DNA from: Roseateles saccharophilus
GTDB lineage: Bacteria > Pseudomonadota > Gammaproteobacteria > Burkholderiales > Burkholderiaceae_C
Length of the DNA: 64,000 bases
NCBI RefSeq assembly: GCF_004342485.1
Contig: NZ_SMBU01000002.1
Location: 186,001-250,000 of the forward strand
Reading direction: 5' to 3'
How positions within the stretch are numbered: position 1 is the first letter of the stretch; each line of letters starts with the position of its first letter. The notes under the pieces are model-generated. The model had not been told where the DNA came from and did no database searches. It saw nothing but the letters and a program-made list of their open reading frames with translations. Both the position numbers and the translations under genes were made by a program. Of the stretch, positions 27,779 through 31,588 are shown piece by piece.

Positions 27779-27854
<76 letters not shown>

Positions 27855-27905
27855 AATCTCCTGAAAAGGGTTTGCGTGGCGCGCAGTTCAAGCGGCGAAG
27901 GTTTA

Positions 27906-27981
27906 GTCCCCTTCGTCTAGAGGCCTAGGACACCACCCTTTCACGGTGATTACAGGGGTTCGAATCCCCTAGGGGACGCCA
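27906..27981 (+). tRNA. tRNA-Glu (TTC), copy 1
   Basis: 76 bases with CCA. Acceptor GTCCCCT pairs with AGGGGAC; the anticodon loop reads CTTTCAC, anticodon TTC; T-arm GGTTCGAATCC. It lies 51 bases after tRNA-Ala and just downstream of gltX, whose product charges it. Confidence 0.97.
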
Positions 27982-28082
27982 AATTTCCATCGAAAGATGG
28001 AAATTGACAATCCCGTCGCAAGACGGGCGAGTTTGATGAAGCTTGGGTATTGCCGCGAGGCGATATCGAATTCATCCCACGC
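27982..28082 (+). other. tRNA-Glu/tRNA-Asp spacer with two tetraloop hairpins, copy 1
   Basis: Contains ATTTCCATC-GAAA-GATGGAAAT and CCCGTC-GCAA-GACGGG, both closed by GNRA-type tetraloops, then a GCGATATCGAATTCATCCC stretch. The same spacer, nearly unchanged, recurs at 28434-28533. A TTGACA at 28004-28009 lacks a partner -10 at the right distance. Confidence 0.7.
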
Positions 28083-28159
28083 GGAGTGGTAGTTCAGTTG
28101 GTTAGAATACCGGCCTGTCACGCCGGGGGTCGCGGGTTCGAGCCCCGTCCACTCCGCCA
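28083..28159 (+). tRNA. tRNA-Asp (GTC), copy 1
   Basis: 77 bases with CCA. Acceptor GGAGTGG pairs with CCACTCC, discriminator G. The anticodon stem CGGCC...GGCCG region holds CTGTCAC, anticodon GTC. T-arm GGGTTCGAGCCC. Confidence 0.97.
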
Positions 28160-28188
28160 AGGATTTCGTTGGGTCCGCCCGACAAAAG

Positions 28189-28218
28189 AACGGCCAATTT
28201 ATTGGCCGTTTGCTTTTT
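28189..28218 (+). terminator. Rho-independent terminator between the two tRNA triplets
   Basis: AACGGCCAAT, a TT loop, ATTGGCCGTT, then TGCTTTTT. A 10-bp stem with a T tract after tRNA-Asp copy 1. It should end much of the transcript before the second triplet, for which I see no clear separate promoter. Confidence 0.8.
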
Positions 28219-28234
28219 GCGACCGGTTTGTGCC

Positions 28235-28310
<76 letters not shown>

Positions 28311-28357
28311 ATTTCCCCCTTGGGGATATTGAGTGGCACGCAGGTTTTGAAAATTCT

Positions 28358-28433
28358 GTCCCCTTCGTCTAGAGGCCTAGGACACCACCCTTTCACGGTG
28401 ATTACAGGGGTTCGAATCCCCTAGGGGACGCCA
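28358..28433 (+). tRNA. tRNA-Glu (TTC), copy 2
   Basis: Identical to copy 1 at 27906-27981. The Ala-Glu spacer before it (47 bases) differs from that of copy 1, unlike the Glu-Asp spacer. Confidence 0.97.
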
Positions 28434-28533
28434 GATTCCCATCGAAAGATGGAAATTGACAATCCCGTCGCAGGACGGGCGAGTTTGATGGGCTTGGATA
28501 TTGCCGGAGTGCGATATCGAATTCATCCCACGC
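28434..28533 (+). other. tRNA-Glu/tRNA-Asp spacer with two hairpins, copy 2
   Basis: Near-copy of 27982-28082. The first hairpin keeps its GAAA loop with one mismatch in the stem; the second has loop GCAG instead of GCAA with the stem intact. Conservation of both stems suggests a function in processing, or recent duplication/gene conversion. Confidence 0.65.
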
Positions 28534-28610
28534 GGAGTGGTAGTTCAGTTGGTTAGAATACCGGCCTGTCACGCCGGGGGTCGCGGGTTCGAGCCCCGTC
28601 CACTCCGCCA
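28534..28610 (+). tRNA. tRNA-Asp (GTC), copy 2
   Basis: Identical to copy 1 at 28083-28159, with CCA; followed within ten bases by a strong terminator. Confidence 0.97.
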
Positions 28611-29097: not shown

Positions 29098-29189
<92 letters not shown>

Positions 29190-29209: not shown

Positions 29210-29617
29210 CTATTGCGAGGCCTGGGCGGGCGAGCCGATGCGATGACGTGATTTCAGCCTGTCGATGCACTCGCGCCAGCTCAGCTGGTGAACGATGTTG
29301 TTGAGGTGCAGCATGCGCTTGGAGCGCGCGAGCGTGTGGCCTTCGCCGTCGATCAGTGCGACGTTGCACAGGATGTTCATCGGGTCGAACAGGGCGACGA
29401 CGTCGGGCTGGATTTCGGTCCATTCCCACGCGATCTGGATGGGTTCGCCACCGGCCTCGGTGGCCCAGACCTCCTGGCCCGAGCGCAGGCCTGAGCGCGC
29501 ATCGTCCACCCGGAGGCTGCTGCCGACTTGGCGGAGATCGAGCGTCACCTTTTCAAACTCGTTTACAGTCCTAATTACCGTTTCGCAGGCCATCAGTTGC
29601 CAAGCTGCCATCTGCAT
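29210..29617 (-). CDS. DUF4902 (RsaM-like) protein, 135 aa
   Basis: Matches my memory of the DUF4902 family in the pattern IQIAWEWTEIQPDVVALFDP, then CNVALIDGEGHTLARSKRMLHLNNIVHQLSWRECIDRL (a strand with NVxLID followed by a helix ending in W). That family includes RsaM-type modulators of acyl-homoserine-lactone quorum sensing in Burkholderia and Pseudomonas fuscovaginae, whose genes usually sit between luxR and luxI. Here it is divergent from a LuxR-type gene with 88 bases between the start codons. That gap holds a lux-box-like repeat (29676-29691), a -10-like CACACT at 29647-29652 on the minus strand, and GGGAG seven bases before the ATG. At 135 residues it is a little short. Base composition is more A/T-rich than the flanks. 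Confidence 0.7.
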   Translation of the reverse strand: MQMAAWQLMACETVIRTVNEFEKVTLDLRQVGSSLRVDDARSGLRSGQEVWATEAGGEPIQIAWEWTEIQPDVVALFDPMNILCNVALIDGEGHTLARSKRMLHLNNIVHQLSWRECIDRLKSRHRIGSPAQASQ

Positions 29618-29646: not shown

Positions 29647-29691
29647 AGTGTGCGTTCATCGCGACGGCGCTGCTCCTACCAACCCTAGTAG
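29647..29691 (-). promoter_or_regulatory. Lux-box-like operator and -10 facing the DUF4902 gene (box A)
   Basis: On the minus strand CTACTAGGGTTGGTAG (29691-29676) is a 16-bp inverted repeat of the CTAC...GTAG type. A 23-base gap leads to CACACT (29652-29647), the position of a -10 if the box sits at about -42. Expected start near 29640, giving a roughly 23-base leader. The plus-strand reading CCTACCA...TAG agrees with known las/rhl-type boxes in its left half. Confidence 0.55.
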
Positions 29692-29705: not shown

Positions 29706-30410
29706 ATGAACCTGCAGCGGTACGAACAAGTCAGTCAAGCGGCAGATTTCTCGTCCTTCAGGCAGGGGCTGATCGACTTCGCCAATGACCTGGACTTCGG
29801 CCTCATATCCGGCGTCTTGGCCTTTGAGCGCAAGGGGCCCGGGGCCAAAACGGAATACATCTCGATCGGCAACACGCCGGCGGAGTTTGTTGAGGCTTCA
29901 AGCAATCCGGAAAACGCCAAGCGCGATCCGGTGCACCGACATGTGATGGGCAATGCGGCGCCGCTGATCTATGACCAAAGGCTCTACGTGGACGCTGGCG
30001 CCGGGGACCTCTGGGAGATGCAGGCGCCTTTTGGATACAGGACCGGTCTTGCCGTTAGCGTCCACATGCCCGGTTACCGGCGTTTTCTGCTGGGCGTCGA
30101 CCGAGAGGAGGTGTTGCCCAGCGATCCGGTCAAGCTCAATCGGATGATTGCTGACCTGCAATTGCTCGCGGTGCATGCCCAAGATGCGGCTGCGCGACTC
30201 CTCGTGACCGCCAAGGCGCCGCGCCTGCAGCCCAGGCAGCTGGAAATCCTGAAGCTGACGATGGAAGGTAAGAGTGCCTGGGTTGTCGGCAGCTTGCTGG
30301 GAATCAGCGAGAACACGGTGAACTACCACATGAAGCAGTTGTTCAGGCAGCTGGACGTGTCGAACAAGAACCACGCAGTGCTCAAGGCAATGGAGCTGGG
30401 CCTCCTGTGA
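29706..30410 (+). CDS. LuxR-family quorum-sensing-type regulator (autoinducer-binding domain plus HTH)
   Basis: 234 residues. N-terminal autoinducer-binding domain (about 1-150) and C-terminal LuxR HTH (RLQPRQLEILKLTMEGKSAWVVGSLLGISENTVNYHMKQLFRQLDVSNK). Aligned by eye to TraR, the invariant Asp70-Pro71 pair is kept (AKRDPVHRH) and so is the FGYRTG Gly. Trp57 is replaced by Phe (PAEFVE), Tyr61 by Ser and Trp85 by Tyr (APLIYDQ). The HTH Glu, Leu and Gly are kept. It may therefore bind an unusual acyl-HSL or other ligand, or act as a LuxR solo, since no luxI is in the window. ATG 29706 gives the normal domain start. Composition is visibly more A/T-rich than the surrounding genes. Confidence 0.88.
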   Translation: MNLQRYEQVSQAADFSSFRQGLIDFANDLDFGLISGVLAFERKGPGAKTEYISIGNTPAEFVEASSNPENAKRDPVHRHVMGNAAPLIYDQRLYVDAGAGDLWEMQAPFGYRTGLAVSVHMPGYRRFLLGVDREEVLPSDPVKLNRMIADLQLLAVHAQDAAARLLVTAKAPRLQPRQLEILKLTMEGKSAWVVGSLLGISENTVNYHMKQLFRQLDVSNKNHAVLKAMELGLL

Positions 30411-30416
30411 GGCGCG

Positions 30417-30463
30417 CACTACCAGGGTTTGTAGTTCCCTGGCATCCCTCGGTCCGACAAACT
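30417..30463 (+). promoter_or_regulatory. Lux-box-like operator and -10 downstream of luxR (box B)
   Basis: CTACCAGGGTTTGTAG at 30419-30434, nine bases after the luxR stop. It agrees with box A (read on its own strand) at 14 of 16 positions. After a 23-base gap comes CAAACT (30458-30463), matching CACACT at the same distance from box A. Predicted start near 30470. Confidence 0.6.
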
Positions 30464-30506
30464 TCGCGCCATCTGAACACGGCCTGACGGCCAGATGGAG
30501 CGAGTT

Positions 30507-30557
30507 ATGTGGAAGCTGATTGCTGAAGTCTTCGGTCTGCCCTATACCGGCGGTTGA
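30507..30557 (+). CDS. Possible 16-aa micro-ORF
   Basis: Encodes MWKLIAEVFGLPYTGG then TGA. GGAG at 30497-30500 lies six bases before the ATG, an ideal spacing, which is rare for a random short frame. A GGCC-TGAC-GGCC stem-loop sits just upstream (30481-30492). The peptide is hydrophobic with two aromatic residues and ends in Gly-Gly. No homologue is known to me. It could be a regulatory peptide, a leader that controls the RNA downstream, or chance. Confidence 0.4.
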   Translation: MWKLIAEVFGLPYTGG

Positions 30558-30626
30558 TCGCCTTATCGACAAAAGGAAAAGCGACACCTCCATCGCTTTC
30601 GTTCGGTGCCCCCCGAACGTCCTGTT

Positions 30627-30667
30627 CCCGCGACCGCCCCTTTGCCGGGGTCCTCGCGGGTTTTTTG
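30627..30667 (+). terminator. Rho-independent terminator of the post-luxR transcript
   Basis: CCCGCGA (30627-30633) pairs with TCGCGGG (30654-30660) enclosing a CCCC/GGGG inner stem, then TTTTTTGCTT. Well formed and on the plus strand, ending just before the convergent SPFH gene. Confidence 0.85.
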
Positions 30668-30676
30668 CTTGTGAGC

Positions 30677-31588
30677 TCAGGTCTTGCTGCCGCCCTTGAG
30701 CAGTCCCATGGCGGTGCCGATCAGGCCGGCGACCTCGGTCATATTGCCCGGCACGATCATCGTGTTGTTCTTCTGGGCCAGGTGGGCGTAGGCCTCGACG
30801 GCCTTCTCGGCGACCTTGAGTTGCACGGCCTGGTCGCCGCCCGGTTGCTGGATGGCCGCGGCGATCTTGCGGATCGCGTCCGAGGTGGCCTCGGCCACCG
30901 CCGTGATGGCGGCGGCTTCACCCTGGGCCTTGTTGATCTCGGCCTGCTTCTGGCCCTCTGACTTCGCGATCGCCGCCTCGCGTTCGCCGGTGGCGATATT
31001 GATCTGTTCCTGGCGCCGCCCCTCGGACGCCGCGATCAGCGCGCGCTTCTCGCGTTCGGCGGTGATCTGGGCCTGCATCGAATGCAGGATGGCGGGCGGC
31101 GGCGTCAGGTCCTTGATCTCGTAGCGCAACACCTTGACGCCCCAGTTCAGCGCGGCCTCGTCCAGGGCTTCGACGACGGAGGTGTTGATGACGGCGCGCT
31201 CCTCGAAGGTGCGGTCCAGTTCCATGCGGCCGATGACGGAGCGCAGCGTGGTCTGCGCAAGCTGGGTGATGGCGACCACATAGTTGCTCGCGCCGTAGCT
31301 GGCGCGCATCGGGTCGGTGACCTGGAAGTAGAGGATGCCGTCGACGGTCAGCTGGGTGTTGTCCTTGGTGATGCAGATCTGGCTGGGCACATCCAGCGGA
31401 ATCTCCTTCAGCGAATGCCGGTAGGCCAGCCGGTCGACGAAGGGCACCAGGAAATTCAGGCCCGGCGTCAACGTGGCGTGGTAGCGCCCCAGGCGCTCGA
31501 CGACCCAGGCGTGCTGCTGGGGCACGACCTTGATCGAGCGGACCACGAAGATGGCGGCGATGGCGAGGATGACGAGTGCGATTTCCAT
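30677..31588 (-). CDS. SPFH-domain (stomatin/QmcA-type) membrane protein
   Basis: 303 residues. An N-terminal membrane anchor (MEIALVILAIAAIFVVRSI), then the SPFH core (VPQQHAWVVERLGRYHATLTPGLNFLVPFVDRLAYRHSLKEIPLDVPSQ), then an Ala/Glu/Lys/Gln coiled-coil (AEREKRALIAASEGRRQEQINIATGEREAAIAKSEGQKQ). Such proteins form large oligomeric membrane cages associated with quality-control proteases and NfeD partners. The nfeD gene lies directly upstream on the same strand, the conserved stomatin-NfeD pair. Confidence 0.9.
   Translation of the reverse strand: MEIALVILAIAAIFVVRSIKVVPQQHAWVVERLGRYHATLTPGLNFLVPFVDRLAYRHSLKEIPLDVPSQICITKDNTQLTVDGILYFQVTDPMRASYGASNYVVAITQLAQTTLRSVIGRMELDRTFEERAVINTSVVEALDEAALNWGVKVLRYEIKDLTPPPAILHSMQAQITAEREKRALIAASEGRRQEQINIATGEREAAIAKSEGQKQAEINKAQGEAAAITAVAEATSDAIRKIAAAIQQPGGDQAVQLKVAEKAVEAYAHLAQKNNTMIVPGNMTEVAGLIGTAMGLLKGGSKT

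Follow-up and report, generated by a model that had tools for sequence, protein, structure and literature searches.

Which product does a LuxR-type regulator control when no AHL synthase is found in its genome? The question is raised by a locus of Roseateles saccharophilus where, within the window (the 64,000-nucleotide stretch of DNA analysed here, whose numbering is used throughout), a luxR-type gene is followed by a lux box and three consecutive stem-loops, the last of them an intrinsic terminator. The original prediction took this region for a small RNA linked to quorum sensing and exposing an anti-Shine-Dalgarno (anti-SD) loop. We give even chances to a fuller reading, in which the stretch at ~30470-30666 would be a LuxR-driven micropeptide mRNA whose 3′ UTR serves as an anti-SD regulatory RNA, a dual-function molecule of the RNAIII kind. 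If this is true, a LuxR solo controls a single small transcript combining a peptide gene with an anti-SD RNA, an arrangement for which Gram-positive RNAIII is the best-known example, and the role of LuxR solos without an AHL synthase would have an answer at this locus.

The Regulator and Its Lux Boxes

The upstream part of the locus comprises five features.

29210..29617, minus strand: DUF4902 (RsaM-like) gene, divergent from luxR; PF16245 score 20.6 bits (cut-off 25)
29676..29691, minus strand: box A, a lux-box-like dyad upstream of luxR; minus-strand letters CTACTAGGGTTGGTAG
29709..30410, plus strand: luxR-type regulator; Pfam Autoind_bind 55.3 bits, GerE 48.9 bits
30419..30434, plus strand: box B, lux box CTACCAGGGTTTGTAG; pattern match with 0 mismatches, present in 15/15 orthologous loci
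30457..30462, plus strand: −10-like ACAAAC; A-x-A-C-T is invariant here across 15 loci

The DUF4902-like gene had no NCBIfam match, and an SPFH gene, assigned by domain match, converges on the element from the opposite side. Perfect matches to CTACNAGNNNTNGTAG occur just twice in the genome, as boxes A and B, which flank luxR; since a search at one mismatch was swamped (51 matches versus 461 in the reversed control), only these two sites were used. Downstream of one single-mismatch site, C1:249526, lies a gene with a product that by eye resembles glutathione peroxidase. Mean pairwise identity of box B is 0.963 (columns 34-51, 14 loci). Lux boxes are centred near −42.5 relative to the transcription start, and by this rule transcription from box B is predicted to begin at ~30469-30470, a position that fits the −10-like site and would yield a transcript of about 198 bases. 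No sigma-70-like promoter was returned by a simple consensus scan of 29900-31100.

The sole PF00765 match in the genome, a draft of 108 contigs, proved to be the exosortase-associated acyltransferase TIGR03694 (exosort_acyl, 243.5 bits), and consequently no AHL synthase was found there. That gene (G000:C11:71543-71869, L047) is a trap for luxI searches using Pfam alone. With exosort_acyl as the single LuxI-like gene, the regulator at 29709..30410 looks like a solo and probably is one. The proposed link to quorum sensing is weakened by the nature of the lone LuxI-like gene. By TraR numbering, residues W57, Y61, D70, P71, W85, and G113 are taken here to form the canonical pocket. Phenylalanine occupies the W57 equivalent and tyrosine the W85 equivalent in 15/15 LuxR orthologs, with the equivalents of D70, P71, and G113 kept. 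The same tendency is seen among 53 LuxR sequences, where the W57 equivalent is F or Y in 51/53 and the W85 equivalent Y in 40/53, and D70, P71, and G113 equivalents are kept in 53/53.

A Conserved Micro-ORF in the 5′ Half

A DNA match to the region was obtained in 15 of the 20 genus genomes (Roseateles/Pelomonas), and the five genomes without it contain no LuxR of >50% identity. The LuxR proteins of 14 orthologous loci are 73-90% identical. Between box B and the hairpins, the plus strand carries a 16-codon, SD-preceded ORF that the original prediction had missed.

30470..30497, plus strand: leader hairpin CATCTG/CAGATG beside the SD; from the sequence and the centroid fold
30497..30500, plus strand: Shine-Dalgarno GGAG of the micro-ORF; from the sequence
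30507..30557, plus strand: micro-ORF, 16 aa, MWKLIAEVFGLPYTGG, ATG..TGA; present in 15/15 orthologous loci

An in-frame ATG at 30495 would extend the peptide to 20 aa. The orthologous micro-ORFs measure 16-21 codons and terminate in L/F-G-F/L-P-x-x-G in all 15 loci; a strict SD precedes 10 of the 15, and weaker G-rich sites precede the other five. When codon pairs with a single difference are compared, 71% are synonymous in the micro-ORF frame, compared with 20% and 6% when the two alternative frames are read. Column permutations of the micro-ORF gave 27% (sd 8), with 0/300 reaching 71%. This codon pattern indicates that the micro-ORF is under protein-level selection. The small RNA of the original prediction has to be recast accordingly: the conserved hairpin element is there, but the transcript is not simply non-coding, because its 5′ half is the micro-ORF (71% versus 27% synonymous) and GGAG is the SD of that ORF. 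The leader hairpin is absent from the RNAalifold consensus of 15 loci.

Hairpins and Terminator

The 3′ part consists of three stem-loops, all of which are present as originally described, from the first hairpin to the closing intrinsic terminator downstream of box B; CACCTCC in the first loop, TGCCCC in the second, and GGAG at 30497-30500 are likewise in place.

30578..30599, plus strand: H1 hairpin AAAGCGA-CACCTCCA-TCGCTTT; 14/15 loci
30600..30619, plus strand: H2 hairpin CGTTCGG-TGCCCC-CCGAACG, abutting H1 directly; loop 30607-30612, UGCCCC
30627..30666, plus strand: intrinsic terminator, stem 30627-30660, T6 at 30661-30666; 15/15 loci

The H1 loop (30585-30592; CACCUCCA in RNA letters) is anti-SD-like, CACCTCC being the sequence of the 16S rRNA 3′ end. 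Folding energy of the region is unremarkable, with an MFE z of −1.46 and 15/200 shuffles at least as stable. For the full transcript of the window, the predicted ensemble assigns the H1 stem a probability of ~0.35, H2 0.92-1.0, and the outer terminator stem 0.74-1.0; whole-transcript folding leaves the H1 stem as a minor form at several loci, that of the window among them. A simple terminator scanner did not list the plus-strand terminator and listed H1 of the minus strand as terminator-like.

It is conservation, not folding energy, that lifts the element above chance. Mean pairwise identity across 14 loci (L042 left out) is 0.964 for H1 and H2 together, 0.841 for the terminator, 0.58 for the leader, 0.44 for the spacer, and 0.37 for the stretch behind the ORF, and four-fold sites of luxR reach 0.414 (15 loci). 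CACCTCC is unchanged in 11/15 loci and CCTCC lies inside the H1 loop in 12/15; the loops are altered in L036 and L040, and both hairpins are lost in L042. The 18-base core of H2 is found exactly at the locus in 13/20 genus genomes, and a 14th genome has it with 1 mismatch. In L042, from an uncultured Pelomonas, box, ORF, and terminator are kept, the terminator with an interrupted T-run, and another sequence takes the place of H1/H2, in which CCTCCATCGC is still found beside a GCGAAAGC hairpin.

Covariation had been named as the test that could refute the stems. Pairing is retained in 98.4% of alignment cells, and 7 cells show a two-sided change, all within the terminator. These fall into 2 terminator pairs, a count that 258/500 shuffles reach; the covariation score was reached by 1/500. 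Because H1 and H2 hardly vary, the test is nearly uninformative for them. One-sided changes bear on the strand. In L040, one pair each in H1 and H2 is changed, both to G-U, which would read A-C on the minus strand; in L036, one H1 pair is lost. Moreover, the element is intact in L032-L034 although the SPFH gene was not found within the fetched flank. The L040 changes and this persistence argue for a plus-strand RNA belonging to luxR.

Distribution of the RNA Element

Rfam returned only tRNAs at the gathering threshold in the window and nothing at the H1/H2/terminator region. GadY, the best Rfam match there, scored 16.6 bits against a threshold of 45 and was dismissed as chance or terminator likeness. 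The original prediction is borne out in so far as the plus strand encodes a conserved RNA element whose loops are C-rich, which neighbours both a lux box and a LuxR/DUF4902 pair and corresponds to no Rfam family at gathering score. As to the tRNAs, six genes at 27779-28607 of the window (plus strand) fall into two triplets that score the same or nearly so and are apparently duplicated; one further tRNA lies near this cluster at 29102-29189 (minus strand).

A covariance model of the element, R1, was run against 399 genomes of the family, as the original prediction had proposed. Eleven genomes gave E <= 0.01, and six of them correspond to the genus locus (99.8-116 bits). The five remaining matches (27.8-32.7 bits) were set aside as terminator-like or due to chance once their flanks and alignments had been read. 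Among the 20 genus genomes, R1 scored >=98 bits in 14 and 30.9 bits in G215, where the terminator part is matched; no match was obtained in 4, and G216 gave weak matches only (E 0.48 and 0.78). The plasmid collection contained no match to the element. Searches of open-licence PMC papers, judged by title and abstract start, listed none that deals with this peptide or RNA. H2 occurs in a second exact copy on the minus strand of L118 (forward 1500-1519, G207:C20, a contig shared with L099 and L153), 237 bases 3′ of the perfect lux-type palindrome CTGTCAAGCTTGACAG; a T-rich hairpin follows the copy. This copy is convergent with another luxR, and the listed contamination of the MAG is 6%.

LuxR Relatives and Pro-x-Gly Mini-ORFs

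H1/H2 were found only in this genus, whereas the class of micro-ORFs is wider. At E <= 1e-35, 101/399 family genomes contain LuxR relatives; in a sample of the order, relatives at E <= 1e-30 were detected in 3/300 genomes, two of them from the family itself. The 53 LuxR hits taken further are best-scoring loci plus genus paralogs and not a random draw, and L068 was dropped because only 31 bases were available downstream. Mini-ORFs were tallied as SD-preceded ATG ORFs of 12-90 codons, <=330 bases downstream and ending in P[RKYTFVI]-x(0-2)-G, with motif and widened SD list fixed after the peptides had been inspected. By this tally, 44 of 52 loci possess such an ORF (15/15 orthologs and 29/37 others), and 39 pass with the strict SD list (10/15 orthologs). 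Dinucleotide shuffles gave a mean of 0.6 and a maximum of 3, and the reverse complement 1/52. The eight misses include L064 and L073, which exceed the 330-base limit, and L072, which by eye starts with GTG; no fitting mini-ORF was found in L056, L065, L077, and both L153 loci.

With lengths of 16-61 codons, the mini-ORFs fall in a range where genes are known to escape gene callers. Short peptides are exemplified by MKIIDLVYEILGLPRLGG and MTQSHSIAPAFPRVGF. The former belongs to the second luxR of the same genome (G000:C19:58112-58816; L004, L154), which is 48% identical and is followed by this SD-preceded mini-ORF without H1/H2. Long ones bear a double-glycine-type leader and C-termini such as SPKGGW, SPRTGW, and APKGTW; longer ORFs with double-glycine leaders follow luxR in L061, L063, L067, L069, L071, L074, and L076. 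An HlyD_3 gene comes next in 5/5 loci tested (L064, L069, L071, L072, L073; three of these five peptides were read by eye). The next gene is DUF4902-like in 3/4 loci of the other arrangement (L061, L063, L074), at 19.5-21.6 bits and hence below cut-off; no DUF4902 match was obtained for that of L076. Three long mini-peptides tested had no Pfam or NCBIfam match.

From this pattern a broader, tentative proposal can be drawn, which we consider rather doubtful as a whole: a clade of LuxR solos would be paired with mini-peptides ending in Pro-x-Gly-(Gly/Trp/Phe) and constitute a peptide signalling or export system of the Burkholderiaceae, some members having double-glycine leaders before an HlyD-type gene, and the Roseateles/Pelomonas transcript would have gained a 3′ anti-SD RNA, making it a Gram-negative counterpart of RNAIII. 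Since many LuxR relatives in the family precede a mini-peptide gene, their ligand and output would, if the reading is right, become directly testable.

Alternative Readings of the Transcript

The reading as a dual-function transcript draws on features that the sequence comparison establishes, namely the lux box, the conserved coding micro-ORF, the near-invariant hairpins, the terminator, and the preference for the plus strand. LuxR together with a ligand would activate box B and give rise to one short transcript (~30470-30666), beginning at the predicted start site. The transcript would be translated into the 16-residue mini-peptide, and its 3′ part, either intact or processed and stabilised by H2 and the terminator, would present the CACCUCC and GCCCC loops. 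Through their CCUCC and CCCC letters, these loops might block G-rich translation-start regions in other mRNAs by base pairing. A target search with TGGAGGTG..ATG yielded 39 matches versus 8 in the reversed control; SD-like complement sites are therefore common and no specific target stands out. As H1/H2 are confined to the genus and the micro-ORF class is wider, the peptide may even be the main product. Taken to its end, this leads to a micropeptide mRNA without a trans-acting part, in which H1 and H2 form a 3′ UTR for stability or protein binding, the anti-SD appearance is incidental, and the peptide, perhaps a signal, is what functions. Such a plain mRNA is a serious possibility, if clearly short of an even chance: the micro-ORF is present in 15/15 loci and H1/H2 in 14/15, 29/37 related LuxR loci have the motif mini-ORF without H1/H2, and strong R1 matches do not leave the genus. 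Against it stands the letter-by-letter conservation of H1/H2 (0.964), which far exceeds the need of a stability hairpin.

The constant loop could also act on its own transcript, with the H1 loop region pairing with the SD of the micro-ORF and shutting off peptide synthesis. In the window, GAUGGAG (30494-30500) is complementary over 7 bases to CUCCAUC (30588-30594), with a duplex energy of −13.1 kcal/mol, and the pairing between H1 region and leader suggested at the outset is feasible there. It is, however, predicted to be appreciable in only five of the 15 loci (the window, L034, L038, L040, L041); H1 values of the leader-pairing script were left unused for L036, where a one-base deletion puts the register off, and for L042, where they are meaningless. 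The leader varies, with GATGGC and GGACGG types, whereas the loop stays constant. Self-pairing is therefore not conserved and cis-control improbable, and with a conserved coding micro-ORF behind the leader, GGAG is best understood as a translation start site. Even less probability falls to a plain non-coding, trans-acting anti-SD sRNA: three hairpins, C-rich loops, and a terminator fit that design, but the enclosed ORF has a strong coding signature. We give equally little credence to a function of the block on the minus strand, where it would close the convergent SPFH gene at its 3′ end or act as an element with a GGA loop. The scanner does call minus-strand H1 terminator-like, and its loop there reads TGGAGGTG; yet the two changes that keep G-U pairs favour the plus strand, the T-run sits on the plus-strand terminator while the one after minus-strand H1 is missing in L032-L034, and the block persists where SPFH was not found.

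Comparison with Known Systems

By sequence, the element belongs to none of three known groups, RNAIII, NfeR1-type sRNAs, and CcaF1-CcsR. For the regulatory genes, the closest description is that of RsaM (pfam16245), whose gene has been reported divergent from a luxR solo in Pelomonas (topology type 6; PMC10710839). The arrangement of the DUF4902-like gene and luxR is the same here, at a domain score of 20.6 bits, below 25; the passages of that account dealing with type 6 name no downstream peptide or RNA gene (PMC10710839). Coding by sRNAs is known in general (PMC5521070). In Rhodobacter, the CcaF1-CcsR1-4 transcript (CIN1 locus) combines a DUF1127 protein of 71 aa with four sRNAs under an RpoH promoter (PMC10253847). 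There, too, a small-protein gene precedes sRNAs on one transcript, from which they are released by RNase E (PMC10253847); the present locus differs by its 16-aa peptide, two hairpins, and lux box. Hairpins exposing CCUCC-type anti-SD loops before a terminator are shared with αr14/NfeR1, the cuckoo-type sRNAs of alphaproteobacteria, which have three identical CCUCCUCCC motifs and for which the passages describing them report no micro-ORF (PMC10746234). The triple CCUCCUCCC motif is absent here, in contrast, and one CACCUCC and one GCCCC loop are found instead.

The proposed dual function has its nearest parallel in RNAIII of Staphylococcus aureus, an RNA of 514 nt with 14 stem-loops that codes for a toxin of 26 residues and is controlled by AgrA (PMC8383071). 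According to the same description, RNAIII combines control by a density regulator, a small ORF, C-rich hairpin loops by which ribosome-binding sites are blocked, and a last hairpin that acts as terminator (PMC8383071), all of which have a candidate equivalent at this locus. Unlike RNAIII, the transcript would measure only ~200 nt, LuxR-type control and pairing are predicted, the peptide is unrelated, and no sequence relation is claimed. The RNAIII-like trait that can be followed from locus to locus, C-rich loops together with an intrinsic terminator, is found in 14/15 of them.
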